Part shown: positions 7,060-33,848 of the stretch, in pieces
How positions within the stretch are numbered: the first letter of the stretch is position 1
How the letters are laid out: every line of letters begins with the position of its first letter
Source of the DNA: Bacteroidota bacterium
GTDB taxonomy: Bacteria; Bacteroidota; Bacteroidia; Chitinophagales; LD1
Assembly (NCBI GenBank): GCA_947476645.1
Contig: CANJRM010000014.1
Location: 1-49,421, forward strand
Direction of reading: 5' to 3'
DNA: 49,421 bases
The notes under the pieces: model-generated
Told to the model about the DNA's origin: nothing
Seen by the model: only the letters and a program-made list of their open reading frames with translations
Database searches by the model: none
Position numbers and translations under genes: made by a program

Positions 7060-10000
7060 TTAGTTCATTAAGGTAACTGTACCTGTAATGTCAACTACCG
7101 ATTTGTCGAAGTAGGTAATCTTAATTTTGTAAACATAAGTATCGAACGGACAAAGCTTCCCGCCTTTAGTTCCATCCCATCCGCTGTTTTGGTTCATTCC
7201 ATTCACTTGATTGTCGTTATGGAAAACTAAGTCGCCCCAACGAGAGTAAATACTAACGTCTAATTTATCGGCTCCCAAAATGTCAAATTCAAAACGGTCG
7301 TTAAGTCCGTCACCGTTTGGTGTAAATGCCGAAGGAATAAACTTAGAGGCTTCGTTCTTTACATCAATCGTAATGGTGTCATAAGCAGAGCAGCCATCTG
7401 TATTAGTTATGACAGCCATAAATGTAGTAGTATAATGAGGATGAACATTAGGGCTTGGACAATTGTTAGGGTCACAACCACCAAAATCAAAGATATCGCC
7501 ATATGCCGAATCCACCAATGGGCTCCATGCTATTGAAACAATAGTTTGAGCAGGCAATACATTTGTATTTAACTGTGTTTGCATACCAGTCAGAATGGTT
7601 TGTTGATTGGTTGTAAGCGTAAGTGCAAAGCCAGGTGTCTGTGTAATGGTGAAGGTGTCAGTTCCATCACATCCGTTGGCATCTGATATAACAACGAGAT
7701 AATTTCCAGCGCTTACCTGGGTAAACGTATCACCCAACTGAGACAATCCGTTCAGTTCATAAATATATGGTGCTAATCCACCGGTCGCGGTTACTACCAC
7801 CACACCATCATTAACGTTAGAGCATGAACTAGCAGTTACATCTGTACTCACATCAATAGCTGAAGGTTGATTAAGGGTTTGAGTTGCAGTAGCACTACAT
7901 CCTTTTGAATCGGTAACTGTAACGGTGTAATCACCCGCAGTTAAATTAGCTGCTGAAGCCGTGTTTTGCGCTGGCACTGTGTTCCATGCGTAGGAATAAC
8001 CCGGAATACCTTGTGTAGCTACTACGGATAATGAACCGTTGGTACTTCCGTTACAACTAGGTTGATTGCTAAGCAGGCTAAGATAAATTTCTGTTGGTTG
8101 CGTAATCGTATAAACAGTCGACTTCACGCATCCCTTCGAATCAGTTACCGTTACGGTATCCGTTCCGGCAAGTGCATTAGTCAAGTCTTCATTCGTGCTT
8201 CCACCAGTCCATACAAAAGTATAAGTAGGTGTTCCACCGGTAACTGTAATATCAACTCCACCAGTTGTTCCAAAACAAACAGCATTCGTTATATTGCCTG
8301 TAATATCAATATCAGTCGGCTGAACAACATCGGCAGTATCTGAATTATAACATCCGAATGAATCGGTTACTTGAAGAACATAGTGACCGGCTATTACATT
8401 CAACACAGTAGAACTGGTATCAAATGTGCTCCATAGGAAATGTAAAGGGTCAACAGGAATACCGCCCGTTGCAGTACCGGTAAGCGTTCCATCATTACCA
8501 CCGAAACAACTTACTGGTGTTGCTGTTGCATTCACAATTATTGCCGGAGGGTTAGTAAGAGTTCTAGTGTCTTGAGCGGCACAGCCGTGTGCATCGGTAG
8601 CGGTTATTGAATACGTTCCGCCCGGTAAATTAAATTGATCCTCACTGGTTACATTATTCGACCAAACAAAATCATAAGGAAGTGTTCCTCCATAGCCCGT
8701 TATATCTAAATACCCATCGGTAAAGTCGTGACAAGTAGGGTTTTTAAAGAACGTTGTAATATAGAAAGGACCCGGCTCGGTTACCGTCAATGAATCGTAA
8801 GCAGTACATCCTCTCACATCCGTAATAATCACCGTGTATCTGCCTGCTCCAATTCCCGAAATATCCTCTGTAGTAAAGATAACCGCACCCGCGCTGTCTT
8901 TCCACTCGTAAGTGTAACTTGGTGTGCCCCCCGAAGGAATCAAATCAATAGAGCCGTTCAAATCCATAAAGCAAAGCGGTGTGTTGATAATAGCATTCAC
9001 CGAAAGTAACGATGGTCTTGCAATGTTTATCGATTTAGCAGCCGTGCAACCGTTAGCATCGGTTACAGTTACCACATATATCGCATCAATCAAGCCGTTA
9101 ACATCCTGACTGGTGCTGTCATTACTCCACAAGTAAGAGTAGCCCGGAGTTCCGCCATTTACACTAATGTAAATAGCACCATCTTGATTAGCAAAGCAAG
9201 TAATGTCAAATGCCGAATCAACCGTAATAATTATTGGAGAAGGCTCACCTATGATTACTGAATCGCGATGCGTACATCCGTTGGCATCGGTAATCAACAC
9301 GTAGTAAATACCACCGTCAAGGTTGGCAATGTTTTGCGAACCCTGGAAATTGCTCCAGAAGAAAGTATAAGGAAGCGTTCCCCCGGTCACCGCTAAAGAA
9401 GCTGTTCCGTTATTAGCGCCTTGACAAGTTACATCAGTTCCTGTAATGGTTGTGTTGATACCGGCAGGTTCAGTAATAGTATATGAAGCCGTAACTGTAC
9501 AACCGTTCAAATCATTCACCGTAACATCGTAAGTTCCTTGGGTCAAGTTCTGAACATCTTCCGATGTAGAACCATTACTCCATGTATAAGAATATGGAGT
9601 AGTTCCACCACCCACCGAAATATTTACAGTTCCATCATTACCACCTGCGCAATGAACATTCGTTGCACTGCCTATAAGCGTTAAAGCTGTAGGTTGAATA
9701 ACTGTAGTAGTTGCAGTAGCTGTGCAACCGTTGCCGTCAGTTACTGTAACCGTATATGTTCCTGCTGCAACTCCCGTTAGGTCTTCTGTTAAAGCACCGT
9801 TATCCCATGCATATCCATAATTGAGTGTTCCGCCAGTAACGGTTAAGTCAACATCGGCAGTTCCGCCATTGCACGAAATATTAGTAGTAGTAATTGAAAG
9901 CACCAAAGCCGAAGGCTCAGCAATAATTACTGAGTCGCGGTGGTTACATCCGTTAGCATCAGTAATAATTACAAAGTAAGTTCCTCCCGAAAGGTTGCTT

Positions 10001-13000
10001 AGATTTTGCGAAACCTGGAAATTGCTCCATGCAAAAGTATAAGAAGGAGTTCCTCCGTTTACTGTAAGAATAGCCGAACCGTTAGCCGCACCATGGCAGG
10101 TAACATCAGTTCCTGCAACCGAAGAAGTAATTGCTGTAGGCTGATTAATAGTAAACGAAACACCGTTGGTGCAACCATTACCATCAGTAACTACACAGTT
10201 ATAAACTCCTGCTACTAACCCGCTCAGATCTTCAGTAGTTTCTCCGTTGCTCCATGCAAAAGTATAAGGAACCACACCACCGCTTACGTTAATGTTGATT
10301 GTTCCATTGGTTCCGCCATTGCAACTTACATCCGTTGAATTTCCGGTAACTAATAAAGCAGTAGGTTGAGTAACTGTGGCACTTACAGTAGCCGTGCATC
10401 CGTTGGCATCAGTAATAGTTACTGTATATGTTCCGGCAACCACGTTTACTAAATCTTCACTGCTGGTCGAATTACTCCAGTCAAAAGTATAACCTGGTGT
10501 TCCACCGGTCACCGTTAAATCAACTAAGCCTGTGCCTCCGTTACATAAAATATTCAGAACACTCACCGTTGGAGCAATAGCCGTAGGTTCAGTTACCACT
10601 TGCGAAGCTACTATTGAACATCCGTTGGCATCATGAACAATAACCGTATAAGTGCCGCCTGCTAATCCGCTAAGGTCTTCAGAAACTGAACCGTTCGTCC
10701 AGAAATAAGTATAAGCAGGTACTCCACCGCTCACAGTCAAATCAACACTTCCGTCATTTGCTCCGTGGCAGCTAACATCAGTAGCTGTGGTAGTAGCAAC
10801 AAGTGCCGTAGGTTCTGAAACTGTAAACGATGCAGAGAGCGAACATCCATTGGCATCCAACACAGTTACAAAATAGTTTCCACCGCTTACATTATGAATA
10901 TCTTCTGTATTAATACCGTTGCTCCAAGCATAAGAATAAGGGAACACACCACCTTGAACAGTAATATCCACTGAACCATTTGCACCACCTGCGCAGGCAA
11001 CATTGCTTGTTGTTGAATTAAGAACTAAAGCTGCGGGTTGTGTAACCGTTGCCGTTGCACTTGCTGTGCATCCGTTTTGATCTATAATACTTACAGAATA
11101 GTTTCCGGCTGCAACTCCCGATAAATCTTCAAGAGTTGAACCGTTACTCCATGTGTAATTAATAGGAGGAGTTCCGCCATTCACCGTAATATCAACTCCG
11201 CCACTTGCATCGCCATTACAAAGCACACTCGCAGTAACTACTGAAATAGTAATAGCCGCAGGCTCTGTAATAACTATTGAATCGCGATGTGTACATCCGT
11301 TAGCATCGGTAATTATCACGCGGTAAATTCCTCCGCTCAGATTAGTTAAGTCTTCTGTATTCTGGAATGTATTCCATAAGAAAGTATAAGGAGTAATTCC
11401 ACCGTTGACAGTTAAGTCAGCCACACCGCTACTATCTCCATGACAAAGAACATTCGTTGCCACAATATTCGATGTAATAGCTACAGGTTCCGAAATAGTA
11501 AATGAAGCTGATGCCGAACACAAATTAACATCGGTAACAATTACAGAATATGGACCACCGCTCAATCCGCTGATGTCTTCGGTTGACGCACCGTTGCTCC
11601 AGCTATATGAATAAGGAGTTGTTCCGCCTGCAACAGTTATGTTGATAGCACCATTTGCTCCACCATTACAAGTTACATCGGTAGCAGTTCCGCTCACAGT
11701 AAGTGCAGCAGGTTCTGTTATAGTAAACGTTGCTGTTGCTGTGCAAAGATTCGCATCAAAAACAGTCACCGTATAAGTTCCTGCCACCACGTTGCTTTGG
11801 TCTTCGCTGCTGGTAGAGTTGCTCCATGCAAAAGTATAACCCGGTGTTCCACCGCTTACGGTTACATCAATAAAGCCATCACTCGAACTGTTGCAACTTA
11901 AATTAGTTACTATACCGCTAACCACAATCTGTGTAGGCTGAGTAACGGTTGTTGTTGTAATTTTTTGACAGCCATTTGCATCGGTTACAATCGCCACGTA
12001 GTTTCCGGCAGTAAGCCCAGTAAGGTCTTCTGTAGTTGCAAAGGTTGACCACAAATATGTATAAGGAGGAGTTCCATCAGTTACAGTTAAATCAGCAGCG
12101 CCATCATTTCCACCAAAACAACTTACAGGAGTTGGCGTAATTGAAGCAGTCATTGCCACCGGTTCTGAAACCGTAAACGATGCAGTAAGCGAACATCCGT
12201 TTGCATCGGTAATTGTTACTGAATAATTTCCTCCGCTCACGTTATGAATATCTTCTGTAGTAGCCAAATTACTCCAACCATAAGTATATGGGAATACACC
12301 ACCTTGAATAGTAATATCAACCGAACCGTTTGCACCACCTGCGCATCCTACATTGGTAACAGTTGAATTAATAGCCAAACCGGCAGGTTGGGTAACAGTT
12401 GCTGTCGCGCTTGCCGTGCATCCATTTCCATCGGTAATCGTCACCGAATAATTTCCTGCAACAACATTTACTAAATCTTCGCTGCTGGTTGAATTACTCC
12501 AATCATAAGTAATAGTTGGAGTTCCGCCATTTACGGTAATATCTACGCCACCGCTTGCATCACCATTACAAAGCACATTGGTAGTAACTAAAGAAATAGT
12601 GATAGCCGCAGGTTCTATAATAATTATTGAATCACGTTTCTGACATCCGTTAGCATCGGTAATAATTACATAGTAAGTGCCACCGCCAACGTTTGCCAAG
12701 TCCTCTCCATTTTGGAAAGTACTCCACAAGAACGTGTAAGGAGTACTGCCACCGATTACCGTCAAATCAGCATAACCGTTAGCCGCTCCATGACAGGTAA
12801 CATCGGTTCCCACAATACTTGAAACAATCGGATTAGGTTCACTGATAGTGTACGAAGCTGATACGGTGCATCCATGCGCATCAGTAATTGTAACATCGTA
12901 AGTGCCTCCGGTAATTCCGGTTAAGTCCTCACTAGTAGCTCCGTTTGTCCATAAATAAGTAAATGGACCAGTGCCTCCCGCAACTGTTATATTAATAAAG

Positions 13001-16000
13001 CCGTTTGAGTTGCCACTGCAATTTACATTTGAAGTAACTGCAGACACGCTAAGAACAGCTGGTTGTGTAACGGTAAAACTTGCTGTTGTATTACAGCCGT
13101 TGTCGTCAAATACTGTTACGCTATAAGTTCCTGCTACTAATGAGCTCTGGTCTTCGCTGGTAGATGAATTATCCCAGGCATAAGAATATCCCTGCTGCGT
13201 AGTACCACCCGAAACAGTTATATCAATTGCTCCATCATTCACACCATTACAACTAACATTGGTTACAGTTCCTGTAATTACAATAGGAGTAGGTTGACTG
13301 ATAGTAATACTGGTGATAGTCTGACATCCTTTAGAATCAGTAACAATTACCGTGTAAGTACCGGCTGTTAGATTGGTAACATTTTGTGTGCTGGCGAAGT
13401 TAGACCACAAGAATGTATAAGGCGCATTACCACCAAATACATACAATTGAATATCTCCATCGTTACCGCCATAGCAGGTTACATCGGTAGGTTCATTGGT
13501 GGTTGAAAGCACAGCTGGTTCAGTAACAGTGCTGCTTCCTGTGAAGGTGCAACCATGAGCATCAGTTATAGTAACTGTATATGTTCCTCCTGCTAATCCG
13601 CTAAGGTCTTCTGTTGTTGCCCCAGTGCTCCACAAGAAAGTATACCCTAGAGTTCCTCCAGTTACTGTCAAATTCACGCTTCCGTTGTTTGCACCATTGC
13701 AGGTTACAGCAGTAGCCACAAAACTTCCGTTCAATGCTTGTGCAGGTTGAGTAATAGTTACAGTTACACTTGAACTACAACTGTTATTATCAGTTACAAC
13801 CACAGAATATCCTCCGGCAATTAATCCGGTTCTATCTTCATTCAGGTCGCCATCGTTCCATAAATATGTATAGCCAGGTGTTCCTCCTGTAACTGTCAAA
13901 TCAATCGCGCCAGTTGCATCGCCAAAGCAAAGCACATTGGTAAGTAGTGTAGTTAATCCTAATCCTGTAGGTTGACTAACAGAAGTTGTGTTCGTATTGA
14001 TACAACCATGTGCATCGGTAATAATTACAGAGTAAGTGCCGGCACTTACGTTTGTCAAGTCTTCATTAGTAGTAGCATTACTCCACTGGAAAGTATATGG
14101 AAGAGTTCCTCCGTTTGGAGTTAAATCCACCGTTCCATTGCTAACACCATTACAAGAAACACTTGAACCCACAATACTTGAAGTAAGTTGTGTTGGCTCA
14201 GTAAGCGTTTGCGTAATTATTTTTTCGCAGAGATTATTGTCATTAATAGTTACCGTATATGTTCCTGCATGAAGTCCTGTTAAATCTTCAGTAGTTGCAC
14301 CGTTGCTCCATACATACGTGTATGCCGGCACACCACCACTTACCGATACATCAATAGAACCCGTTGAATCATTATAACAGTTTAGATTATGGAAAGAAGC
14401 TACGTTTACAAAAAGTTGAAGAGGCTGCGAAACCGTAGCACCCGTAAATGCGGTGCATCCCTTTGAGTCGGTAATTGTAGCCGTATAAGTGCCCGCAAGT
14501 AAACTATCTACATCTTGGGTAATATCGCCATTGCTCCAGAAATAAGTATAAGGAGCAGTTCCACCGTTTACACTAATAAATATTTCTCCAGTTGCAGTTC
14601 CATTACAACTAACACTGTTTACCACATCTACAATAGCAGATAGCTGAGCCGGCTGAGTAATACTTACAGGTTGAAAAGCAGTACATCCTTTTGAATCGCG
14701 AAGAATAACCACATAATTTCCTGCTGTAAGCCCTGTGAATATTGGCGATGCTGAGAATATAGTGCCATTTATAGAATATTGATAAGCAGGAATGCCACCA
14801 ACTATCTGAACGGTTACGGCACCATTACTTCCACCAAAACAAGAAACATCTGTTTGCGAAACTATGAAGGAGGAAACGTTATAAGAATCATTGATTAAAA
14901 CGTGTGAAGTATCTACACAACCGTTCACATCATATACGTATACTACATAAGAACCTGACTGCAATCCGGTAAACTGGCTTCCTACTTGTGTAGGTCCGCC
15001 ATTAAGCGAGTAGGCATATGGTGCAACACCACCCGAAGCAAACACATCAATTTTTCCGTCAAATACGTTGGCGCAACTTGCGTCTGTAACTGTAGTTGTA
15101 TGGTCAAGAAGAGTTGGTTGAGTAATCACCACAGGGTTTAATGCATAAGCACGCGAACATGTTTGCACATCACGTACCACTACATTGTAACTACCTACAG
15201 TAAGGTTATTAAAGAAGTTAGATGACTGATAAGTTGCACCGTTATCTATTGAGTAAGATAGCGGTGGTGTTCCGTTCGAAGCATTAACTGAAATAGTTCC
15301 TGTGTTTCCACCAAAACATAAAACAGCTGTTGGTGTAACGGAGTTAACAGCAGGCAATGGGGTAACTGTAATTACAACATTACTTGTAGCTGCCAAACAA
15401 GGACCCACTCCATCAGGGTCATTTGTAGTTAATGTAAGGGTAACTGTTCCTGATGTTATAGAAGGAGAATAAGTTGATGTTAATGACGAAGCATTTGAGA
15501 ATGTCCCAGTTGGAGCACTCCATGTTGAACTTGTCGCACTGCCACCTATGCTTCCTACTAATGTAATTGTTCCATTTTGACAAACAGTTTGAGCACTTCC
15601 TGCATTTGCAGTAGCCGCTTGATTTACTGTGATCACAACTGTACTTACAGCTCCCGAACAAGGCCCTGCCCCATCAGGGTCATTAGTTGTCAGAGTAAGT
15701 GTTACATTTCCTGATGCAATTGATGGAGTGTAAGTAGAACCCAGTGAGTTAACGTCAGAAAAAGTGCCGCTTGGTGCACTCCACGTTGATGAAGTAGCAC
15801 TACCACCAATAGCTCCGGTTAAAGTAATTGTACTTCCCTGACAGGTTGTTTGAGGCACGCCTGCATTAGCAGTGGCGGCTTGATTTACGGTTATTGTAAC
15901 TGTACTGATAGCAGCGGAACACGGTCCTGCTCCATCAGGGTCATTAGAAGTTAATGTAAGTGTTACTGTTCCTGAAGAAATAGACGGAGTATAAGTTGAA

Positions 16001-18552
16001 GTTAATGAAGCAGCATTTGAAAAACTTCCCGTTCCTGCGCTCCATGTAGATGAAGTAGCACTTCCTCCTCTAGTCCCTGCAAGAGTAATTGTTCCACCAC
16101 CACAAACTGTTTGAGCAGCTCCCGCACTTACTGTAGGTGCTTGATTTACGCTAATAACAACAGTGCTTATTGCAGCCGAACAAGGACCCGCTCCATCAGG
16201 ATCATTCGTAGTAAGCGTAAGTGTTACATTTCCTGATGTAATTGATGGAGTGTAAGTTGAAGTAAGTGAACTTGCTAATGAAAAAGTTCCGCTTGGTGCA
16301 CTCCATGTTGATGAAGTAGCACTACCGCCAATACTTCCAGCTAAAGTAACCGAACCACCCTCACAAACCGTTTGTGCAAATCCTGCATTGGCTGTAGCCG
16401 CCTGATTTACTGTTATTGTAACTGTACTGATAGCAGCAGAACATGGTCCTGCTCCATCAGGGTCATTAGAAGTTAATGTAAGTGTTACTGTGCCCGAAGA
16501 AATAGAAGGAGTATATGTTGAGGTAAGTGACGCTGTATTCGAAAAACTTCCTGTTCCTGCACTCCATGTTGAACTTGTTGCACTTCCACCTCTGGTTCCT
16601 GCTAGAGTAATTGTTCCACCACCACAAACTGTTTGTGCAGCTCCCGCACTTACTGTAGGAGCTTGATTTACGGTAATAACAACAGTGCTTATTGCAGCAG
16701 AACAAGGACCTGCCCCATCAGGGTCATTCGTTGTAAGCGTAAGTGTTACATTTCCTGATGTAATTGATGGAGTGTAAGTTGAAGTAAGTGAACTTGCCAA
16801 TGAGAAAGTTCCGCTTGGAGCGCTCCATGTTGATGACGTAGCACTACCACCAATACTTCCGGCTAATGTAACCGAACCTCCCTGACAAACAGTTTGGGCA
16901 AATCCTGCATTGGCCGTAGCTGCAGCATTAACTGTAATAACTACAGTACTGGTTACCGCACCGCACGGACTTCCATTCGCGGTAAGTGTAAGTGTTACTG
17001 TGCCTGACGTAATAGAAGGGGTATAAGTTGAAGTTAGTGAAGCTGTATTCGAAAAACTTCCGGTTCCTGCACTCCATGTAGACGAAGTAGCACTACCGCC
17101 TATACTTCCTGCCAATGTAACTGTGCCGCCCGCGCAAATAGTCTGTGCACTTCCTGCATTAGCAGTGGCTAATTGATTATTAGTAAGTACGACACTACTT
17201 GATGAAGACGCGCATGAGCCACCAGTAGATACAGTCCATGTAAGTGTGGCACTCGAACCCGCTGCTATACCTGTAATTGTGGAATTGTAAGCGTTGGGTG
17301 ATGTAATACTTGCCGAACCACTCGTGACCGTCCATGTTCCTGTGCCGACAGCAGGCGGAGTAGCCGCCATTGTAAATGTTCCGTTATTACATTGTGTTTG
17401 TGCAACTCCTGCTACCGCAGTTGAAGGTACACCATAAACAGTAAATGAAGTAGTAAAACTGCAGGCACCTAAAGTAGCACCAAGTGTAACAACCTGGCTA
17501 CTTCCAGAAACCCCTGATGCGGTATAAACCACTCCAGAAATAGACCCCGGACCTGAAACGATTGACCAGTTTACTGCAGGAGAACCTGTATGCGTTCCTG
17601 CATAGTTAACCGCCAAAGTTCTAGTCGAACCATCTCCGCACATTGAAGCTGTGCTGGTAGCATTACTAATAGTTGTGTTTTGGCGAACCTCGAGCAACGC
17701 AGAGGTACCAGGCCAAACTGAACCACAAGCATACCTGTCAACCATTACTTTAACTGTACCTGTAAAATAAGATGTCCAATCAAGTGATGCGCGGCTTGTT
17801 GCACAAACAGAACCATTGTCGTCATTATAAAAAGTTCCTCCTGCTGTAGGTGAGGTTTGACCAGAGCCAATAAAACTATTTCCTGCATCATAGCCTGAAA
17901 TTTCAGAATCCCATCCAGAAGCGCAAGTAGAAACAGAATAATTCACTCCTGTAATTGCGGTGAAAGACGCATATGCAGTAGATGGAATACTTAGTTGTCC
18001 ACCAAATGCACCACAACCAGGTGTAACATTGCCTGCACTTGAACCCGTTAGAGGACAAGGTGGGCCAACTGGTGGGGGTGGCGGTGGGGGTGCAGAGGAA
18101 GTTATATACATTGGCATACAAGGACCTGAATTGGTTGCGCAATTATATTGGTCTATCAACACATTCATCGTTCCGCTATAACCCGCAGTAACCGTTAGTT
18201 GTGAGGATAATCCATTAGCACCACAAGCGTCATCATTAAAACCCAAAACCGTTGCACCTGCTGCATCATATACAGTTATCTCTGAATCAAAAGCAGTAGT
18301 AGAACAAGTAGAAAAAGTATATGTACCGCCTGCAACCACGGTCATTGTCATTAAATCTCCGCCAAAAAAACAATCATTTGCTAAATGCGCTGCGCCATCA
18401 TAAACTGGAGTATAGTTAATGTAGAACGTGTTGTTGTATCCACATTGTGCAACAACTTTTGAACTTGGTAGAACAAGTAACAGCAACCCAAGAAAGATTG
18501 CCATTAAAAAAGATTTTGCTGATTGGGAGAACGAGGAGTTAAAGTTTATCAT
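7060..18552 (-). CDS. Giant SprB-repeat surface protein with type B T9SS sorting domain (3830 aa)
   Basis: Signal peptide at residues 1-36 (AIFLGLLLLVLPSSKVVAQ). Residues 37-460 hold two related Cys-containing domains around a run of seven prolines, plus further beta-rich sequence. Seven Ig-like/PKD-like repeats of about 87 residues follow (about 460-1065, each with GGSATSSTWSA). Then come 34 SprB repeats of about 75 residues (about 1077-3642; pattern VxCNGxxDGxIDLxVxGGTxPY, then WSN, AGTYTVTVTDxxGC, EP). A last PKD-like segment precedes a gliding-motility type B C-terminal domain (SAFTPNGDGLNDRFEF, YSRWGDLVF, GTVTLMN). The T9SS should export it and the C-terminal domain should attach it to the surface or release it. 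SprB of Flavobacterium is a mobile gliding adhesin; an adhesin role here is inference. Start: ATG at 18552; a second ATG at 18504 is possible. A terminator follows. Confidence 0.93.
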   Translation of the reverse strand: MINFNSSFSQSAKSFLMAIFLGLLLLVLPSSKVVAQCGYNNTFYINYTPVYDGAAHLANDCFFGGDLMTMTVVAGGTYTFSTCSTTAFDSEITVYDAAGATVLGFNDDACGANGLSSQLTVTAGYSGTMNVLIDQYNCATNSGPCMPMYITSSAPPPPPPPVGPPCPLTGSSAGNVTPGCGAFGGQLSIPSTAYASFTAITGVNYSVSTCASGWDSEISGYDAGNSFIGSGQTSPTAGGTFYNDDNGSVCATSRASLDWTSYFTGTVKVMVDRYACGSVWPGTSALLEVRQNTTISNATSTASMCGDGSTRTLAVNYAGTHTGSPAVNWSIVSGPGSISGVVYTASGVSGSSQVVTLGATLGACSFTTSFTVYGVPSTAVAGVAQTQCNNGTFTMAATPPAVGTGTWTVTSGSASITSPNAYNSTITGIAAGSSATLTWTVSTGGSCASSSSSVVLTNNQLATANAGSAQTICAGGTVTLAGSIGGSATSSTWSAGTGSFSNTASLTSTYTPSITSGTVTLTLTANGSPCGAVTSTVVITVNAAATANAGFAQTVCQGGSVTLAGSIGGSATSSTWSAPSGTFSLASSLTSTYTPSITSGNVTLTLTTNDPDGAGPCSAAISTVVITVNQAPTVSAGAAQTVCGGGTITLAGTRGGSATSSTWSAGTGSFSNTASLTSTYTPSISSGTVTLTLTSNDPDGAGPCSAAISTVTITVNQAATANAGFAQTVCEGGSVTLAGSIGGSATSSTWSAPSGTFSLASSLTSTYTPSITSGNVTLTLTTNDPDGAGPCSAAISTVVISVNQAPTVSAGAAQTVCGGGTITLAGTRGGSATSSTWSAGTGSFSNAASLTSTYTPSISSGTVTLTLTSNDPDGAGPCSAAISTVTITVNQAATANAGVPQTTCQGSTITLTGAIGGSATSSTWSAPSGTFSDVNSLGSTYTPSIASGNVTLTLTTNDPDGAGPCSGAVSTVVITVNQAATANAGSAQTVCQNGTITLVGSIGGSATSSTWSAPTGTFSNASSLTSTYSPSITSGTVTLTLTTNDPDGVGPCLAATSNVVITVTPLPAVNSVTPTAVLCFGGNTGTISVNASNGTPPLSYSIDNGATYQSSNFFNNLTVGSYNVVVRDVQTCSRAYALNPVVITQPTLLDHTTTVTDASCANVFDGKIDVFASGGVAPYAYSLNGGPTQVGSQFTGLQSGSYVVYVYDVNGCVDTSHVLINDSYNVSSFIVSQTDVSCFGGSNGAVTVQIVGGIPAYQYSINGTIFSASPIFTGLTAGNYVVILRDSKGCTAFQPVSITQPAQLSAIVDVVNSVSCNGTATGEIFISVNGGTAPYTYFWSNGDITQDVDSLLAGTYTATITDSKGCTAFTGATVSQPLQLFVNVASFHNLNCYNDSTGSIDVSVSGGVPAYTYVWSNGATTEDLTGLHAGTYTVTINDNNLCEKIITQTLTEPTQLTSSIVGSSVSCNGVSNGTVDLTPNGGTLPYTFQWSNATTNEDLTNVSAGTYSVIITDAHGCINTNTTSVSQPTGLGLTTLLTNVLCFGDATGAIDLTVTGGTPGYTYLWNDGDLNEDRTGLIAGGYSVVVTDNNSCSSSVTVTITQPAQALNGSFVATAVTCNGANNGSVNLTVTGGTLGYTFLWSTGATTEDLSGLAGGTYTVTITDAHGCTFTGSSTVTEPAVLSTTNEPTDVTCYGGNDGDIQLYVFGGNAPYTFLWSNFASTQNVTNLTAGTYTVIVTDSKGCQTITSITISQPTPIVITGTVTNVSCNGVNDGAIDITVSGGTTQQGYSYAWDNSSTSEDQSSLVAGTYSVTVFDDNGCNTTASFTVTQPAVLSVSAVTSNVNCSGNSNGFINITVAGGTGPFTYLWTNGATSEDLTGITGGTYDVTITDAHGCTVSASYTISEPNPIVSSIVGTDVTCHGAANGYADLTVIGGSTPYTFLWSTFQNGEDLANVGGGTYYVIITDANGCQKRDSIIIIEPAAITISLVTTNVLCNGDASGGVDITVNGGTPTITYDWSNSTSSEDLVNVVAGNYSVTITDGNGCTASATATVTQPAGLAINSTVTNVGCAGGANGSVDITIQGGVFPYTYGWSNLATTEDIHNVSGGNYSVTITDANGCSLTASFTVSEPVAMTASITPTPVSCFGGNDGAADLTVTDGTPPYTYLWSTFATTEDLTGLTAGNYVAIVTDANGCQKITTTTVTQPTQIVVSGIVTNLSCNSSSDGFIDVTVSGGTPGYTFAWSNSTSSEDQSNVVAGTYTVTVFDANLCTATATFTITEPAALTVSGTATDVTCNGGANGAINITVAGGTTPYSYSWSNGASTEDISGLSGGPYSVIVTDVNLCSASASFTISEPVAITSNIVATNVLCHGDSSGVADLTVNGGITPYTFLWNTFQNTEDLTNLSGGIYRVIITDANGCTHRDSIVITEPAAITISVVTASVLCNGDASGGVDITVNGGTPPINYTWSNGSTLEDLSGVAAGNYSVSIIDQNGCTASATATVTQPAALVLNSTTSNVACAGGANGSVDITVQGGVFPYSYAWSNGINTEDIHNVSGGNYFVTVLDANGCSLSASFTVSEPTALVATTTATDVSCHGANDGSVDLTVSGGVPAYTYFWTNGSVSEDLSGLAGGTYTVIVHDANGCSIVASQVVTEPTAIAPTVSVLNILCNGGTGLVDLTVTGGTPGYTFDWSNSTSSEDLVNVVAGTYTVTITDANGCTATVSATVTQPTALLVTGNSTDVSCNGGTNGTININVSGGVVPYTFAWSNGETTEDLSGLVAGVYNCVVTDGNGCTNGVSFTINQPTAITSSVAGTDVTCHGAANGSAILTVNGGTPSYTFAWSNFQVSQNLSNLSGGTYFVIITDANGCNHRDSVIIAEPSALVLSITTTNISCNGGTADVDLTVTGGTLNYGYAWDNGALTEDLTGVAAGTYTVTVTDGNGCTATATTTVIQPTALTLIGSATNVHCAGGNDGTVNISVGGGTTPYSYTWSNGSTSEDVQNLTQGTYDVTVNDLNGCTVTASYTITEPAGINTTITGTDVTCQGANNGTASLAVTGGTLPYTFFWSNFQGSQNIANLDGGIYYVLITDANGCTHRDSVIIGEPSPIIITVDSAFDITCFANQDGAIYISVNGGTPGYSYLWSNDSTSQDVNGLIDAIYVVTVTDANGCTAAKSINIARPSLLSVNAIINTPLCFMDLNGSIDLIPSGGTPSYTYEWKDSAGAVIFTTEDISGIGAGRYTVIITDVRGCTAYDSLTVTEPGPFYITTFFKNPTCHDFTDGYLDITGYGGTLPYDFVWSNNVTSEDQFNLPGGTYSITATDAHGCAAQDTRTLTNPPAIIVNATATPVSCFGGNDGTLTGTATGGIPVDPLHFLWSTFDTSSTVLNVIAGHYVLQVTDSFGCYNSDTADVVQPTDIDITGNITNAVCFGTTGGVDITVTGGTPTYTFVWTGGSTNEDLTNALAGTDTVTVTDSKGCVKSTVYTITQPTEIYLSLLSNQPSCNGSTNGSLSVVATQGIPGYSYAWNTVPAQNTASAANLTAGDYTVTVTDSKGCSATATQTLNQPSAIDVSTDVTASSCSNVNDGVVVVTATGGLAPYIYELNGLSQLGDTFTQVSAGNYLVVISDANGCDGTDTFTITQTPGFALTLTTNQQTILTGMQTQLNTNVLPAQTIVSIAWSPLVDSAYGDIFDFGGCDPNNCPSPNVHPHYTTTFMAVITNTDGCSAYDTITIDVKNEASKFIPSAFTPNGDGLNDRFEFDILGADKLDVSIYSRWGDLVFHNDNQVNGMNQNSGWDGTKGGKLCPFDTYVYKIKITYFDKSVVDITGTVTLMN
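9433..13482 (-). repeat. Six-SprB-repeat superunit, three tandem copies of about 1.35 kb
   Basis: SprB repeats 9-14, 15-20 and 21-26 correspond one to one. Copies begin at 13482, 12126 and 10776, and the next repeat begins at 9432, so the periods are 1356, 1350 and 1344 bp. Marker repeats recur at fixed places: one with a RDSI/RDSV motif before EP, then one with NGDASGGVDITVNGG-like sequence, then one starting with CAGG. This points to block duplication within the gene. Confidence 0.8.
15880..16923 (-). repeat. 522-bp tandem duplication of an Ig-like repeat pair
   Basis: Residues from 544 (16923) and 718 (16401) start two nearly identical 174-residue blocks, each made of two Ig-like repeats (one starting AATANAGFAQTVC, one APTVSAGAAQTVCGGG). 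The blocks differ at only a few residues, for example Gln versus Glu after the first VC. The exact 522-bp spacing and near identity indicate a recent duplication. Confidence 0.85.
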
Positions 18553-18896: not shown

Positions 18897-19742
18897 ATGC
18901 AAACAAAAAAACTAAAAATAGGCATGGCGCAGTTGCTGGTAGAAGGCACCGAGCCTGAGCGCAACATCGAGCGCGCAGAAATTTTAGTGAAGAAAGCTAA
19001 AGAGCAAAACTGCGATTTAGTTCTGCTACCCGAAACGATTGACTTTGCATGGACACATCCCGATGCCATTGAACAGGCGCAACCTATCCCTGGTATTTAC
19101 TCTGATGTTTTTTGCCGTATAGCGCGCGAACAGCAAATTTTTATTTGCGTGGGATTAACTGAGAAGCGAGGAGACAAACGATTCAACACAGCTATTCTTG
19201 TTGATGATACCGGAACAATCGTGTTGAAGTATTCTAAAATAAATCTACTTGAAGTAGAGTTCCCGTTTTATGAACCGGGCACCACGCTAAATGTGGTTGA
19301 CACGAAGCTCGGAAGAATAGGCGTAAACATTTGTGCCGATAACTACATCGAGAGCACGCACATTGGCAAAACCCTCGCTTGCATGGGTGCTGATATTATT
19401 CTTTCGCCCGCCAGTTGGACTGTTGACTATTCCATCACCGAAGCCGATGACCCCTATCGTGAAAAATGGATTAAACCACTATCGAACATTGCGCGCTTGT
19501 ATGATGTAACGGTGGTCAGCGCAACGAGTGTGGGCTATATTGTAGGAGGTCCTTATGAGGGAAAAAAAATGGTGGGGTGTTCGCTGGCGGTAAATAAAGA
19601 TGGCATTATTGCCCAAGGGCAGTTCAATGAATTTGCGGGGCAATTGGTTTGTTTCGAAACGGAATTGAAACCCCAAAAACTAAAAGGAACACAAATCGGA
19701 AAACGGGTGAGGGAAATGGGAATTGATTTTGAAAAAATATAA
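18897..19742 (+). CDS. Carbon-nitrogen hydrolase (nitrilase superfamily)
   Basis: A 281-residue enzyme from the ATG at 18897; an in-frame TTG at 18882 is less likely because it lies in the probable promoter. The nitrilase Glu-Lys-Cys triad is visible: E46 in LLPETIDF, K114 in KYSKINLLEVE, C146 in VNICADNY. Such enzymes hydrolyse amides or nitriles in the cytoplasm; some act as the glutaminase part of glutamine-dependent synthetases. The next gene is a PP-loop sugar amidotransferase and the one after a carbamoyltransferase, so a role as ammonia donor, or as a trimming amidase for the same glycan, is plausible. That is inference: the substrate cannot be read from sequence. The gap to the next gene is 192 bp and holds short repeats, so co-transcription is likely but not certain. 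Confidence 0.88.
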   Translation: MQTKKLKIGMAQLLVEGTEPERNIERAEILVKKAKEQNCDLVLLPETIDFAWTHPDAIEQAQPIPGIYSDVFCRIAREQQIFICVGLTEKRGDKRFNTAILVDDTGTIVLKYSKINLLEVEFPFYEPGTTLNVVDTKLGRIGVNICADNYIESTHIGKTLACMGADIILSPASWTVDYSITEADDPYREKWIKPLSNIARLYDVTVVSATSVGYIVGGPYEGKKMVGCSLAVNKDGIIAQGQFNEFAGQLVCFETELKPQKLKGTQIGKRVREMGIDFEKI

Positions 19743-19746
19743 ATGC

Positions 19747-19789
19747 GATTAACGAATGAAGATTAACGAATGCAGATTAGCGATTTGAA
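19747..19789. repeat. Three 14-bp direct repeats with downstream inverted partner
   Basis: GATTAACGAATGAA, GATTAACGAATGCA and the degenerate GATTAGCGATTTGA follow each other. The segment 19769-19786 also pairs with 19839-19856 (15 of 18 positions), so a hairpin with a loop of about 50 nt can form between the nitrilase and the amidotransferase genes. Confidence 0.6.
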
Positions 19790-19918
19790 CAGCCGAAAGT
19801 CAAGAGTGATTTGTATTTGTATTCACTTCTGCATTCTGAAATCGTTAATCTCCAATCTTCAATCAAAAAAATCATAGAAGAAAAGTGCAGTCATGAGTGT
19901 AATAGTAAACGGTATAAC

Positions 19919-19925
19919 GAAGGAG
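19919..19925 (+). promoter_or_regulatory. Shine-Dalgarno-like site deciding the amidotransferase start
   Basis: GAAGGAG ends about 10 nt before the ATG at 19935 and supports that start over the in-frame ATG at 19893. Confidence 0.45.
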
Positions 19926-19934
19926 TCTTTGCAA

Positions 19935-21086
19935 ATGCAAACCTGCACGCGCTGTGTGCAGGACAGCACCGTGCCGGGCATTCGTTTCAATGCCAAAGGG
20001 GAATGTAATTTCTGCGAGCTGCATGATAAAATGGAATTGCTGTTTCCGAACGGAGAAAAAGGAAAACAATATTTAGAGAAAACATTTGCGCGCGTGCGCG
20101 AAGAAGGCAAGGGCAAGAAATACGACTGCATAGTAGGCATGAGCGGAGGAAGAGACAGCACCATTCTGCTATGGAAAGTAGTGAAGGAATGGAAGTTGCG
20201 CCCATTGGCAGTTCACTTCAACGATGGTTTCGACAATCCGGTAGCGGGGGAAAACATGATAAACGCGGTGAACAAATTAGGCGTGGAACTGCGCACTATA
20301 ACTTCCGACTGGCGCGAAGCAAAAGATTTGAAAATCACTTTCCTCAAAGCATCCACACCCGATTTAAATTTAGGAACCGATATTGGGATTGCCTCTTCTT
20401 TGTATCAGGCAGCTTATGTAGAAAATGTAAAGACCATTCTCATCGGTCAATCATTCCGCACCGAAGGAGTGAAGCCATTGTCCTGGTCTTTTTTCGATGG
20501 CGATTATCTGCGCAATGTGCAAAATCAATTAGGCACCGTTAAACTTCGTCCGTGGAAACCCGAAGACCCTGGTTTTAATTTAGGTATGAAAGAATTGGCG
20601 TATTACACTATCGTGAAAGGAATAAAAACCATCACGCCCATGTATTCCAGCGATTACATTCGCGAGGAAGCAGAGAAAATAATTGTGCCTGAATTGGGTT
20701 GGGTATATCCGGGCGCGCATTACTTCGATGACCTTTACCATAGTTTGATAAAGTATGTTCATCGTGTCAAATTCAATATAGACATGAACATGAATTCCGA
20801 TTCGGCCTTAGTGCGCAGCGGACAACTAAATCGCGACATTGCCTTAGCGCGCGCGCATGGCGTTTATCAAATCGAAAGTGATAGAATAATTGATTTGTGT
20901 TTAAAGCGTCTGGGTTTAAAACGCGAAGAGTTTGACGAAATGATGAAGTTGTCGCCAAAAACTTTTCGTGACTACTCTACTTCTTATTCATTGATGCGAT
21001 TGTTTAAATATCCAATCTGGTTAGCATCGCGATTGAACTTAGTGCCGAAGGTTGTTTACGATAAATACTTTAATTGCGGAGCATGA
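19935..21086 (+). CDS. N-acetyl sugar amidotransferase (WbpG/PseA-like PP-loop ATPase)
   Basis: A 383-residue protein from the ATG at 19935. The in-frame ATG at 19893 adds 14 residues before the conserved start, and a purine-rich site favours 19935. Two CxxC pairs (C4/C7 and C24/C27: CTRC, CNFC) probably bind zinc. The PP-loop SGGRDS is at 70-75 (ATP pyrophosphatase activity, adenylating the substrate). WbpG/PseA proteins turn an N-acetyl group on a sugar into an acetamidino group using ammonia; in Pseudomonas the ammonia comes from a HisH/HisF-like pair. No such pair is here; a nitrilase-fold enzyme lies just upstream. The last four bases (ATGA, 21083-21086) overlap the carbamoyltransferase start, showing translational coupling. 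Confidence 0.88.
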   Translation: MQTCTRCVQDSTVPGIRFNAKGECNFCELHDKMELLFPNGEKGKQYLEKTFARVREEGKGKKYDCIVGMSGGRDSTILLWKVVKEWKLRPLAVHFNDGFDNPVAGENMINAVNKLGVELRTITSDWREAKDLKITFLKASTPDLNLGTDIGIASSLYQAAYVENVKTILIGQSFRTEGVKPLSWSFFDGDYLRNVQNQLGTVKLRPWKPEDPGFNLGMKELAYYTIVKGIKTITPMYSSDYIREEAEKIIVPELGWVYPGAHYFDDLYHSLIKYVHRVKFNIDMNMNSDSALVRSGQLNRDIALARAHGVYQIESDRIIDLCLKRLGLKREEFDEMMKLSPKTFRDYSTSYSLMRLFKYPIWLASRLNLVPKVVYDKYFNCGA

Positions 21087-22696
21087 TAATATTGGGAATA
21101 AATGGCGGAGTTCGTGCGGGCTATCAGGATGTTTCAGCCGTGCTGTTGCGCGATGGCAAACTGATTGCTGCTGTAGAAGAAGAACGATTGAGTCGTGTAA
21201 AGCACTCACCGGGGCAGTTACCATTTCTCGCGGTGCATGAAGTGCTTAGTCTTGGCAATATTTCTATTCGCGATGTGGATATTATAGCCACACACGGCAG
21301 CACCTGGGGCGACCAATACGATGAAGTGTTGAACAGTTATTTCACCAACACCTTTGGCTTTTGTCCGCGCACAGTTCGCTATCATCATCATCAATGCCAT
21401 GCAGCAAGTGCCTATTACGCATCGGGTTTTGAAGATGCGATGATTCTAACAGTTGATGCTTCGGGCGATGGAATTTCATTACAGAAAGCAGTTGGTAAAA
21501 ACGGAAGCATAAATATTACAGAACAAATTTCGCGCGATAACAGTCTCGGAATTTTCTACGCAATGATGACACAGTTCTGTGGTTTTCATCGCGATACTGA
21601 TGAATATAAAGTGATGGGTCTTGCACCCTATGGCAACGCCAACGAAATTGATTTGTCGTTTTTGATTGAACGCTCGAATGGAGATTTTAAAACTAACAGC
21701 GACTACAAAATAAATTATGCTGTAGGTCAGCCACAAGGTTCGCGACAACAAGTTGTTTTCAATCAAAACTTGGTGGACAAACTTGGTTCACCGCGAATAC
21801 CGAATAGTGAAGTAACACAGTTTTATAAAAACGTTGCTGCGTCTACACAGCAATTACTCGAAGATGTTTTATGCGATGTGGTTAAAAAGTTTTCTGCCGA
21901 AACAGGATTAAAGAAATTGTGTTTGGCAGGAGGCGTAGCGTTGAACTGTGCCGCCAATCAAAAACTATTGCAGTTAGATTGTTTGGAAGAAATTTATGTG
22001 CAACCTGCAGCGGGCGATGCAGGAATTTCCTTAGGTGCTACTTATCTTGCTTCGGCTGAATACGATAAAGTTCCCGAAGCCATGACGACTGCAAAACTCG
22101 GTCGCACTTTTAGTGATGATGAAATAGAAGGGCAATTGAAAATGCTTGGTGTTAAGTATGAGAAAGTAGAAGAGCCATATAGCGTTGCTACCGATTTAAT
22201 TCTGCAAGACAAAATAATTGGTTGGGTTGAAGGCGGAGCAGAATTTGGTCCGCGCGCTTTGGGCAGCAGAAGTATTCTCGCTTCCGCATTCAACCCAAAC
22301 ATGAAAGACATTATCAACCGGAAAATAAAATTCCGCGAAGGCTTTCGCCCGTTTTGTCCTTCGGTATTAGAAGAAGATTTTACGAAAGCATTTTCATCGA
22401 AACAAAAAACACTGCCTTACATGACGGTGAACGTAGATGTAGTTTCGGATAATTATCCATCCATAACACACGTCAACAAAACCGCGCGCGTGCAAACAGT
22501 TTCAAAATCAGAAGCAGAAAATTTTGCGAAACTTCTCCAAGCTATTCAACAACAAAAAGGAATAGGCATTGTGATAAACACCAGCTTCAATCGCAATAGA
22601 GAACCAATGGTGTATAATACTATTGATGCAATTTCTGCGTTCTATGGCAGCGGAATGGATGCCATGCTTGTGGGATGTTTTTTGGTGAAGAAGTAG
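21083..22696 (+). CDS. Carbamoyltransferase, NodU/CmcH (TobZ) family
   Basis: A 537-residue enzyme. The start ATG at 21083 overlaps the stop of the preceding gene (ATGA). The N-terminal Kae1/ASKHA-like domain has GINGG, EEERLSRVKH, HHHQCHAASAYY (metal-binding His) and VDASGDG. The C-terminal YrdC-like region has the hallmark EGGAEFGPRALGSRSILA. Members make carbamoyl-AMP from carbamoyl phosphate and ATP, then pass the carbamoyl group to a hydroxyl of a sugar, Nod factor or antibiotic. Coupling to the sugar amidotransferase suggests one modified sugar carrying both an amidino-type and a carbamoyl group. The carrier is unknown: no sugar-nucleotide enzymes or glycosyltransferases are adjacent. 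Confidence 0.93.
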   Translation: MIILGINGGVRAGYQDVSAVLLRDGKLIAAVEEERLSRVKHSPGQLPFLAVHEVLSLGNISIRDVDIIATHGSTWGDQYDEVLNSYFTNTFGFCPRTVRYHHHQCHAASAYYASGFEDAMILTVDASGDGISLQKAVGKNGSINITEQISRDNSLGIFYAMMTQFCGFHRDTDEYKVMGLAPYGNANEIDLSFLIERSNGDFKTNSDYKINYAVGQPQGSRQQVVFNQNLVDKLGSPRIPNSEVTQFYKNVAASTQQLLEDVLCDVVKKFSAETGLKKLCLAGGVALNCAANQKLLQLDCLEEIYVQPAAGDAGISLGATYLASAEYDKVPEAMTTAKLGRTFSDDEIEGQLKMLGVKYEKVEEPYSVATDLILQDKIIGWVEGGAEFGPRALGSRSILASAFNPNMKDIINRKIKFREGFRPFCPSVLEEDFTKAFSSKQKTLPYMTVNVDVVSDNYPSITHVNKTARVQTVSKSEAENFAKLLQAIQQQKGIGIVINTSFNRNREPMVYNTIDAISAFYGSGMDAMLVGCFLVKK

Positions 22697-30346: not shown

Positions 30347-30469
30347 AAACTAACGAGCCGCAAACGTTCGATTGCACTTGTACCGCTATTTGTTCAATTC
30401 ACAAATTTGGCTGTAAAGGATGTGAAGAAAAAACGGCCCTGCTTTTTGTGCACCTTTTACATTCGTTAC

Positions 30470-31480
30470 ATGGCAAAAGCAGTTCGCATCGGTATTTTCG
30501 GAGTGGGACACCTCGGAAAAATTCACGTTAAACTTCTGAAAGAAATTTCGGGTTTCACCATTGTAGGATTCTACGACCCCGATGATAAAAATGCGCACAA
30601 GGCAGAAGAAGAATTCGGCATCAAACGTTTCGATTCTGCCAAGAAACTGATAGAGAGTTGCGATGCTATTGATATTGTTTCGCCAACCACCACACATTTT
30701 GAAATTGCAAAAGACGCCATCAAAAAAGCGAAACATATTTTTATTGAGAAGCCATTAGCAAGCACAGTAAAAGAAGCGAAGGAGTTGGTGGAGTTGGTAG
30801 ATGAAGCGCGCATAAAAGCCATGGTGGGTCATGTAGAAAGATTTAACCCCGCATTGCTTTCGCTCAACAAAAAAAACGTGAAGCCCATGTTTATTGAAGT
30901 ACACCGGCTGGCAGAATTTAATCCGCGTGGCACTGATGTTTCGGTGGTGCTTGATTTAATGATTCACGACCTCGATATTATTTTGAGTTTGGTAAAAGCC
31001 AATGTGAAAAAAGTTTCGGCAAGTGGTGTGGCTATACTTTCAAAATCTCCCGACATTGCCAACGCGCGAATTGAATTTGACAACGGCTGTGTAGCAAATG
31101 TTACGGCCAGTCGTATATCAGTCAAGAGCATGCGCAAGATGCGCATCTTTCAACCGGGTGCTTATATCAGCATGGATTTTTTGAAAAAGAAAAGCGATGT
31201 GTTTCGCATTGAAGATGCTCCGCCAGTCAATACAGAAACCAATCACTTCGAAATTGATTTGCCCGACAGCAGCAAGAAATATATAACCTACGAAACTGCC
31301 GAGAAGAAAGACGTGAACGCCATTCAAATGGAATTGGAATTGTTTCACAAATCAATTACACAAAACAAACCCGTTGCAGTAACTGTACTCGAAGGTTACA
31401 ACGCCATGCATCTGGCGCAACAGATTCTCGATAAAATAAATGTGCAGTTAGTAACTCCCAAGCCAACGAAGGGAGTCTAG
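30470..31480 (+). CDS. Gfo/Idh/MocA-family NAD(P)-dependent oxidoreductase
   Basis: A 336-residue enzyme from the ATG at 30470, where the Rossmann fold begins (AVRIGIFGVGHLGKIHVKLL). An in-frame ATG at 30407 would add 21 residues that fit nothing. The family EKP motif is IFIEKPLAS and the catalytic-region motif is LMIHDLDIILSL. Members oxidise or reduce sugars and sugar nucleotides; UDP-GlcNAc 3-dehydrogenases are among them. Nearby glycan genes make a sugar-nucleotide role attractive, but a terminator at 31483 separates it from the main cluster. Substrate unknown. Confidence 0.88.
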   Translation: MAKAVRIGIFGVGHLGKIHVKLLKEISGFTIVGFYDPDDKNAHKAEEEFGIKRFDSAKKLIESCDAIDIVSPTTTHFEIAKDAIKKAKHIFIEKPLASTVKEAKELVELVDEARIKAMVGHVERFNPALLSLNKKNVKPMFIEVHRLAEFNPRGTDVSVVLDLMIHDLDIILSLVKANVKKVSASGVAILSKSPDIANARIEFDNGCVANVTASRISVKSMRKMRIFQPGAYISMDFLKKKSDVFRIEDAPPVNTETNHFEIDLPDSSKKYITYETAEKKDVNAIQMELELFHKSITQNKPVAVTVLEGYNAMHLAQQILDKINVQLVTPKPTKGV

Positions 31481-31482
31481 GG

Positions 31483-31506
31483 AAAACCGCACGGCTGGTT
31501 TTTTTT
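31483..31506 (+). terminator. Rho-independent terminator after the Gfo/Idh/MocA gene
   Basis: AAAACCGC and GCTGGTTTT pair (one bulged T) around a 3-base loop, followed by TTTTTT. It starts two bases past the stop codon. Confidence 0.8.
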
Positions 31507-31550
31507 CTTTTTATTCGCAATCTTTTTAAACAACCATCGTTTATTGCCCG

Positions 31551-31558
31551 AACATTTG
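31551..31558 (+). promoter_or_regulatory. Possible -7 element before the lipoprotein gene
   Basis: AACATTTG differs from TAnnTTTG only at the first base and lies three bases before the ATG at 31562, similar in placement to the element before the 39901 gene. Confidence 0.3.
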
Positions 31559-31561
31559 CGA

Positions 31562-32386
31562 ATGAGATTCTTCCTAATCCTTTTCCTTTTTGCTGTTGCC
31601 GTTTCCTTCTCTCCTTCCTGTAATAAAATGCCGAATGGCGGTGTGCCTTTTTACATGCGTATGGATTCTGCTACTACCACTTCTGCTTCTGCGGGTGATA
31701 ATGGTATTAAGGATGTTTGGGTAGAAGCTAATAGCACCAATTTAGGAGCCTACGAAATGCCGTGTAACTATCCTGTGCTAGAACAAAATACGGTTCGCTT
31801 TGTAGTAAATGCGGGCATTTATGAAAGCGGACAATCAGGGGTTCGTGTAATTTATCCTTTCTATCAGCCCGACACTTTTTCAATTACCGCAACTCCTACT
31901 AATCAATATGTGCATCATCCGGTTTTCAAATACAAAACGGGAGTAAGTTTTCCATTCACTCTTCAGGATTTTAGTTTTGGAAGCGAATTTGATGCGACCA
32001 AAATGTCTCGAGTTCGAGACACACTGAATAATAATAATTGGTATGGCGTCATATCAACTCTAACAGATTCAAGTCAGGAAGCAGCTCAATCAACTACTTA
32101 TGCATTACCTTTTGACAGAGATGTTTGGTTAGAGTTCGATTATAAAAGTGAAGTTCCTTTTTTCGTTGGTTTTTATGGAAATTATCTCAGTGGTGCCAGC
32201 GTGGTTCGTTATCCGGTTTTGTTTCTTACACCAAGAGATACCTGGATAAAAATTTATTTAAAGCTCACCGACCAGATTAATTCTGTACGTGCCGACCAGT
32301 ACAACCTCTTTTTCGAAGCATTGCGTCCTTATGGCTCAACAGGCGGCAGCGTTTGTATTGACAATGTGAAGTTGGTTCATTACTAA
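31562..32386 (+). CDS. Unknown outer-envelope lipoprotein, 274 aa
   Basis: The ATG at 31562 starts a classic lipoprotein signal, MRFFLILFLFAVAVSFSPSC, with the lipid-accepting Cys at residue 20; an upstream in-frame start at 31544 would only lengthen it. The mature protein is beta-rich with many aromatic residues (for example WLEFDYKSEVPFFVGFYGNY) and ends in VCIDNVKLVHY, a jelly-roll-like pattern. It should be processed by Lgt, whose gene is in this window. I know similar hypothetical lipoproteins in Bacteroidota but no function. It lies 12 bp before the sugar-transferase gene and may be part of its operon. Confidence 0.8.
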   Translation: MRFFLILFLFAVAVSFSPSCNKMPNGGVPFYMRMDSATTTSASAGDNGIKDVWVEANSTNLGAYEMPCNYPVLEQNTVRFVVNAGIYESGQSGVRVIYPFYQPDTFSITATPTNQYVHHPVFKYKTGVSFPFTLQDFSFGSEFDATKMSRVRDTLNNNNWYGVISTLTDSSQEAAQSTTYALPFDRDVWLEFDYKSEVPFFVGFYGNYLSGASVVRYPVLFLTPRDTWIKIYLKLTDQINSVRADQYNLFFEALRPYGSTGGSVCIDNVKLVHY

Positions 32387-32398
32387 GCTTTGGTTTCC

Positions 32399-33817: not shown

Positions 33818-33848
33818 GGTGTCAGACAATCAAAAGTGTCAGACACCT
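33817..33848. repeat. 12-bp inverted repeat built on TGTCAGACA
   Basis: AGGTGTCAGACA and TGTCAGACACCT pair with one mismatch around an 8-base loop, right at the stop of the sugar-transferase gene. No T run follows, so it is not a standard terminator. A related hairpin ends the GNAT gene at 36729-36749. Confidence 0.65.

Follow-up and report, generated by a model that had tools for sequence, protein, structure and literature searches.

In a 49,421-nucleotide window from a Bacteroidota bacterium (contig C14, CANJRM010000014.1, of a draft genome of 3.56 Mb and about 90% completeness), a nitrilase-superfamily gene lies beside a gene for a WbuX/WbpG-type N-acetyl sugar amidotransferase (NASAT). 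By the window we mean this whole stretch; the nearest named relatives of its genome are Bacteroidota metagenome-assembled genomes (MAGs). On the best reading, which draws on an analogy, the nitrilase would be the dedicated ammonia-supplying glutaminase of one WbuX clade, and the pair would be a two-gene analogue of glutamine-dependent nicotinamide adenine dinucleotide (NAD) synthetase. Judging from the sequences, the two proteins are probably subunits, or channelled partners, of one glutamine-dependent N-acetyl sugar amidotransferase. WbuX enzymes are thought, in the account of PMC10607449, to ligate ammonia to the N-acetyl group of a sugar with loss of water. In the proposed mechanism, the Cys-Lys-Glu site of the nitrilase would strip ammonia off an amide donor, most likely glutamine. 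The PP-loop of WbuX would spend ATP, activating the N-acetyl group of a sugar, and WbuX would join the ammonia to the activated group, giving an acetamidino sugar. Neighbouring HisH and HisF proteins are the usual attributed source of ammonia for bacterial amidino sugars.

The nitrilase gene (18897-19742, plus strand, ATG at 18897) encodes a protein of 281 amino acids that scores 99.9 bits against the CN_hydrolase profile PF00795, whose cut-off is 23.2. Its triad consists of Glu46, Lys114, and Cys146, with an additional glutamate (Glu121) seven positions after the lysine, and the triad codons lie at 19032-19034 (Glu), 19236-19238 (Lys), and 19332-19334 (Cys). For comparison, we scanned GTDB, one genome per species, with two peptide patterns of the nitrilase subfamily and used the best 80 of 126 relatives; these 80 loci share some members with the genomes of the window's own family. 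In an alignment of 79 nitrilases (the window's and those of 78 of the 80 loci, with L122 and one short row excluded), Glu46, Lys114, and Cys146 are invariant, Glu121 is present in 77, and an aromatic residue four positions after the cysteine is kept in all 79. The AlphaFold model of the nitrilase has the nitrilase fold with a predicted local distance difference test (pLDDT) score of 90.5.

The WbuX gene (TIGR03573) occupies 19893-21086 on the plus strand, the likelier ATG being at 19935. It carries both marks given for the NASAT family in PMC10607449, an SGGXDS PP-loop and a tetracysteine motif CxxCXn[GN]xCxxC. The PP-loop, the ATP pyrophosphatase site, reads SGGRDS at 20142-20159, and the tetracysteine CxxC...GxCxxC, the metal site of the family, lies at 19944-20015, both on the plus strand. 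All six PP-loop residues and all four cysteines are invariant in 35 aligned sequences, window included. The WbuX model (pLDDT 89.7) has the expected fold, and its top structural match is the Legionella pneumophila NASAT 8wex with a template modelling score of 0.59. A preliminary description of this DNA had reported three consecutive genes with a Glu-Lys-Cys triad, an SGGRDS motif, NodU-type domains, and an ATGA overlap, and sequence and profiles bear it out.

Linkage of the two genes is near-obligate. We searched 30 genomes of the window's family, its own included, with the TIGR03573 profile and the nitrilase sequence. The nitrilase subfamily is present in 21 of them, and WbuX adjoins in 21/21, although in G008 the pair is split over contig ends. 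These nitrilases are at least 61% identical in whole-length rows, whereas other nitrilases of the same genomes reach 33% at most. A second family, sampled by 120 genomes centred on G195, holds 30 nitrilases at E 1e-60 or better, and WbuX adjoins 30/30. Together, 51 of 51 subfamily nitrilases in 150 genomes adjoin WbuX, a PP-loop synthetase. Among the 80 GTDB-species loci, tblastn detected WbuX within 500 bases and on the same strand in 78. At one of the two others, L104, WbuX lies 3.3 kb away; the 7-kb contig of L122 has no WbuX, and a nitrilase-type WbuX 57% identical to the window's is on another contig of that genome. The idea that such nitrilases might mostly occur without the amidotransferase thus does not hold for this subfamily.

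The pair occurs in at least five phyla by record titles and taxonomy, namely Bacteroidota, Omnitrophota, Elusimicrobiota, Verrucomicrobiota, and Myxococcota, although MAG labels such as 'Nealsonbacteria' may be incorrect. Gene order among the 78 pairs is nitrilase-WbuX in 67 and WbuX-nitrilase in 11. A start codon could be called in 75 of these pairs, and if the one closest to the preceding stop is chosen, the two reading frames overlap in 20. Distances among the nitrilases correlate with those among the WbuX proteins at r = 0.90, a figure without a control. A phylum-wide nitrilase search (395 genomes, own included, E 1e-40) added two nitrilases, that of G195, paired with WbuX, and that of G187, unpaired. 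The G187 protein (L066/L068) is 38% identical, has an apparent signal peptide by eye, and has no WbuX match in 19 kb. We counted it outside the subfamily; it perhaps represents a sister group with a different role. A search of PLSDB plasmids for the nitrilase at E 1e-30 gave no match.

Beside WbuX, the nitrilase and HisH/HisF exclude each other. The two families hold 72 WbuX genes that score above 100 bits. The nitrilase accompanies 51 of them, and HisH with HisF accompanies 13 (two of these, both in G433, share one HisHF pair); three lie in frames of about 670 amino acids, and five have no donor in view. No WbuX among the 72 has both nitrilase and HisHF, and no HisF match adjoins any of the 51 nitrilase-linked genes. 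The long frames are L027:556-2571, L076:2820-4814, and L211:10255-12273; Pfam confirmed an N-terminal class II glutaminase domain (GATase_6/7) in the two of the three that were scanned. The five donor-less genes comprise three beside a YjbQ-like gene, a second copy in G457 (G457:C35), and the gene of G019, which is cut by a contig end and adjoins a carbamoyltransferase. The WbuX genes of L007, L008, and L009 score above the curated cut-off and adjoin no HisHF and no nitrilase; they occupy a fixed site between YjbQ-like and ABC-permease-like genes (names by eye). In the window's family, nine of the 21 nitrilase genomes have no HisF match above 100 bits, and seven of the nine are at least 93% complete, which makes a need for HisF in these genomes unlikely.

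The nitrilase-linked WbuX proteins form one clade with a support of 99 in the Shimodaira-Hasegawa-like approximate likelihood ratio test (SH-aLRT). This was a quick tree of 71 of 98 sequences, with 27 Hymenobacter sequences thinned out and upstream extensions of reading frames trimmed. The clade has a single further member, the additional copy in G457. WbuX proteins that are fused, linked to HisHF, or without a donor fall outside it, L027 and L076 on a distant branch, and the tree program flags long branches among these outside sequences. In the HisHF-linked and fused arrangements a glutaminase takes the place that the nitrilase occupies here, so ammonia supply by the nitrilase is the simplest reading. 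The preliminary description had proposed this role; what stands from the genomes is a constant partner of one WbuX clade in the place of HisH/HisF, and the biochemistry is a prediction. As an account of the nitrilase, ammonia supply to WbuX appears well supported by these sequence comparisons.

Among characterized systems, the closest on the synthetase side are WbuX-WbuY-WbuZ and WbpG-HisH2-HisF2, which share the TIGR03573 family, the PP-loop, and the tetracysteine with the window's WbuX. They differ in using a HisH/HisF class I glutaminase pair rather than a nitrilase, and the window's WbuX belongs to a separate clade. A Sphingomonas cluster described in PMC11340318 likewise has a WbuX/WbpG-type protein alongside HisH- and HisF-like proteins. 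The WbuX frames of about 670 amino acids couple a glutaminase module to the WbuX domain, as we propose for the nitrilase pair, but their module is a fused class II (N-terminal nucleophile, Ntn) glutaminase, the nitrilase is separate, and L027 and L076 sit on the distant WbuX branch. On the glutaminase side, the nearest parallel is the two-gene (type C) NAD+ synthetase TTC1538-TTC1539 of Thermus, where a nitrilase-fold gene likewise stands beside a PP-loop synthetase gene. According to PMC3376133, the two Thermus genes belong to the same operon, and their products purify together and work with glutamine; the glutamine-using complex is proven there, whereas ours is predicted from genes. The Thermus synthetase is of another family with another substrate, and the window's nitrilase is not the glutaminase domain of an NAD synthetase.

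The preliminary description had called the pair a split version of the NAD-synthetase design. With the Thermus precedent (PMC3376133), this is a working analogy, but it does not stand as a statement of descent, since the nitrilase resembles amidases more and the genome has its own fused NadE. For the same reason we rejected the candidate role of the nitrilase as a missing NAD-synthetase subunit of its own genome: a separate fused NadE is present. In PMC3376133, class IV glutaminases are given as the nitrilase-like part of NAD synthetase. The window's nitrilase shares with them the coupling to a PP-loop synthetase gene but not homology to NAD synthetase at the equivalog level. Because its nearest relatives are amidases, it would have been recruited separately from the NAD-synthetase glutaminase. 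Taken together, we think it likely, if with a little less confidence than in the subunit assignment itself, that this is the first nitrilase-type glutaminase outside NAD synthetase, that it goes back to an amidase-like ancestor taken up independently, and that WbuX has three interchangeable kinds of donor. To our knowledge, no other nitrilase-type glutaminase works outside NAD synthetase, and our searches of open-licence PMC papers turned up none describing a nitrilase that works for a sugar amidotransferase.

Several observations weigh against this reading. Against the NAD synthase model NF010588 the nitrilase scores 50.8 bits, with a cut-off of 479; the nitrile_Arch, AguB, and GSH-amidase models score it better, yet below their own cut-offs, and none of the NCBIfam models attains its cut-off with the window's nitrilase. 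The solved structures nearest to it belong to amidases and N-carbamoyl hydrolases; one is a Pyrococcus amidase whose structure was determined with glutaramide. In NadE of Mycobacterium tuberculosis, as described in PMC6946656, Glu177 adjoins the nucleophile. The position after Cys146, which we match to it by our own alignment judgement, is Ala (77/79) or Ser in the nitrilase subfamily and not Glu, and the nitrilase can therefore not be said to bind glutamine as NadE does. Linkage demonstrates co-inheritance, not contact, and no nitrilase-WbuX fusion was found in the 78 pairs. The 78/80 figure, moreover, speaks for the nitrilase subfamily only, because the loci were collected with two of its peptide patterns. 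On the WbuX side, G457:C35, which belongs to the nitrilase clade, and a nitrilase-type WbuX in G542 have no adjoining nitrilase, although both genomes hold nitrilase and WbuX elsewhere. The window's WbuX scores 192.3 bits over 344/344 positions of TIGR03573, just below the curated cut-off of 203.2; within the same clade, scores go up to 220.1 in the second family, and a member from another genome has 228.8. Finally, a HisF match at E 1e-40 turns up in 118 of the 120 second-family genomes, mostly one each and not beside the pair, so that in this family the argument for the donor is one from gene neighbourhood.

Part of this evidence would suit a nitrilase that carries out a separate step on the same sugar, such as amide, N-acyl, or N-carbamoyl hydrolysis, while WbuX uses free ammonia. 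The closest solved relatives act as amidases and N-carbamoyl hydrolases, ammonia-only enzymes are known among the related NAD synthetases (PMC3376133), and three WbuX genes of the window's family have no adjoining donor. However, a separate step leaves unexplained why the nitrilase occurs where HisH/HisF is absent and never together with it (0/72), and why it partners one WbuX clade whatever other sugar genes are nearby. We regard this explanation as unlikely. More improbable still is a nitrilase that feeds WbuX with ammonia from an amide other than glutamine, for example asparagine, formamide, or a carbamoyl compound. The residue adjoining the nucleophile differs from that of NadE and the solved relatives act on varied amides, which fits such a donor, but in the account of PMC3376133 most ATP-dependent amidotransferases rely on glutamine as their general amide source in vivo. 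Glutamine is the likely donor.

The two genes might also be mere operon neighbours, spread by horizontal transfer of sugar clusters and functionally uncoupled. Many loci do lie near envelope-glycan genes, and such genes are often transferred horizontally. Against this, the pair is kept in two gene orders across the five phyla, Hymenobacter keeps it away from sugar clusters and beside an apparent valS in 30 of 33 loci, and among the 150 genomes no subfamily nitrilase was seen in a genome lacking WbuX. We give mere neighbourhood next to no weight. The proposal of a nitrilase and WbuX acting as glutaminase and synthetase, possibly as a physical complex with an ammonia tunnel, would account for the linkage, the exclusion of HisH/HisF, and the single clade.

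The third gene of the window (21083-22696, plus strand, ATG at 21083) encodes an O-carbamoyltransferase of the NodU/TobZ kind. Both domains of that family, Carbam_trans_N (PF02543, 168.4 bits) and Carbam_trans_C (PF16861, 192.7 bits), are above their cut-offs, and the protein matches TobZ, GdmN, and relatives at E 4.6e-66 or better. Its start overlaps the WbuX stop in an ATGA at 21083-21086 on the plus strand. Relatives carry the same trio of nitrilase, WbuX, and carbamoyltransferase in one of two gene orders, so it is not a chance arrangement. In the window's family, the carbamoyltransferase subfamily is found in 22 genomes, the 21 nitrilase genomes and G019, where it adjoins the pair as far as contigs reach and is met only with nitrilase-clade WbuX. 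It is matched in pieces in G010, G016, and G021, with a broken frame in the last. This count excludes distant carbamoyltransferases (about 425 bits or less), which are present in nearly all 30 genomes.

The trio of the preliminary description therefore holds throughout the window's family, but not as the general unit: the carbamoyltransferase lies within 2.5 kb of the pair in 32 of the 80 GTDB-species loci, so the core is the pair. It is carried by 31 of 33 rows of one WbuX subclade (SH-aLRT 100), and no tree row outside this subclade has it within 2.5 kb. The exceptions within are L093 and also L107, the latter on a contig that stops just past WbuX; L122 has the gene but is absent from the tree. 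The carbamoyltransferase is thus a subclade accessory. In the window's subclade it probably acts on the same glycan as WbuX, to which it would then add an O-carbamoyl group.

The gene surroundings point to the sugar. At least one gene of a set comprising DegT aminotransferase, Gfo/Idh oxidoreductase, NAD epimerase, ATP-binding cassette (ABC) export, GT2, and small-transporter clusters occurs at 38 of 47 non-Hymenobacter loci, and DegT and Gfo/Idh occur together at nine. The DegT, Gfo/Idh, epimerase, and small-transporter labels rest on Pfam, with one or two members of each cluster scanned, and the ABC and two GT2 labels were given by eye. Such a set would suit a 2,3-diamino sugar, and the context points to one made by enzymes like WbpB, WbpE, and WbpD as the substrate. 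Pseudomonas aeruginosa WbpG acts on a 2,3-diamino sugar, as PMC10607449 relates. Two observations on gene context count against the reading of the pair as a whole. None of the set is found at the 33 Hymenobacter loci (among L123-L166), and the only Gfo/Idh match of the window's own genome to the trio neighbour in L102 is 27% identical and lies in a cluster downstream; the best DegT match of the genome (43%) is on another contig. In Hymenobacter the pair, beside the apparent valS (named by eye), is placed as though it were a core gene of the genus.

At nine loci (L110, L119, L120, L124, L131, L149, L152, L156, and L162) a small EamA/SMR-like membrane protein of about 130 amino acids (L110:4548-4934) is encoded directly upstream of the nitrilase, and none of the nine has a carbamoyltransferase within 2.5 kb. 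The protein might be a flippase for a lipid-linked sugar; Pfam gave no match for it in L162 and a sub-threshold one in L110. The large gene after the pair likewise has no Pfam match in L162 and a sub-threshold PMT match in L110.

In the window itself, the nitrilase and WbuX genes are loosely packed. Their spacer of 150-192 bases holds an imperfect inverted repeat with 43-nucleotide arms, 72% complementary (19747-19864, no strand assigned), which is possibly an insertion; the gap is about 25 bases in G007 and about 164 in G017. The pair stands alone, with Gfo/Idh and glycan genes 7.7 kb downstream. At 30407-36751 lie genes for a Gfo/Idh oxidoreductase, a 280-residue protein, an initiating sugar transferase, KAS III, GT2, and a GNAT acetyltransferase, which is a small glycan or glycolipid cluster. 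On the minus strand, 7060-18552 encodes a giant repeat protein of 3830 residues that is SprB-like by eye. A further protein, encoded at 47028-49244, has by Pfam both SprB repeats and a sorting tail of a secretion system. In Porphyromonas, the Wbp pathway makes the linking sugar of type IX secretion, as set out in PMC7468200. Together with the giant repeat protein, this prompted the thought that our pair serves such a linking sugar. We left it as a thought, since the pair also occurs in some phyla in which we know of no type IX secretion.

If the nitrilase is the ammonia donor, WbuX enzymes would draw on HisH/HisF (class I), a fused Ntn domain (class II), or a nitrilase, and a newly evolved ammonia tunnel would be expected between the nitrilase and the PP-loop enzyme. 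The envelopes of Hymenobacter, Chitinophagales, Omnitrophota, and others would be expected to carry an amidino sugar, in trio carriers also O-carbamoylated. The proposal gives an entire WbuX clade, spread over several phyla and lacking HisH/HisF neighbours, a specific and testable ammonia donor, and it suggests a function for a nitrilase subfamily that falls short of the cut-off of every NCBIfam model. One synthetase family with glutaminases of different kinds would then be a natural experiment on how ammonia channels arise.

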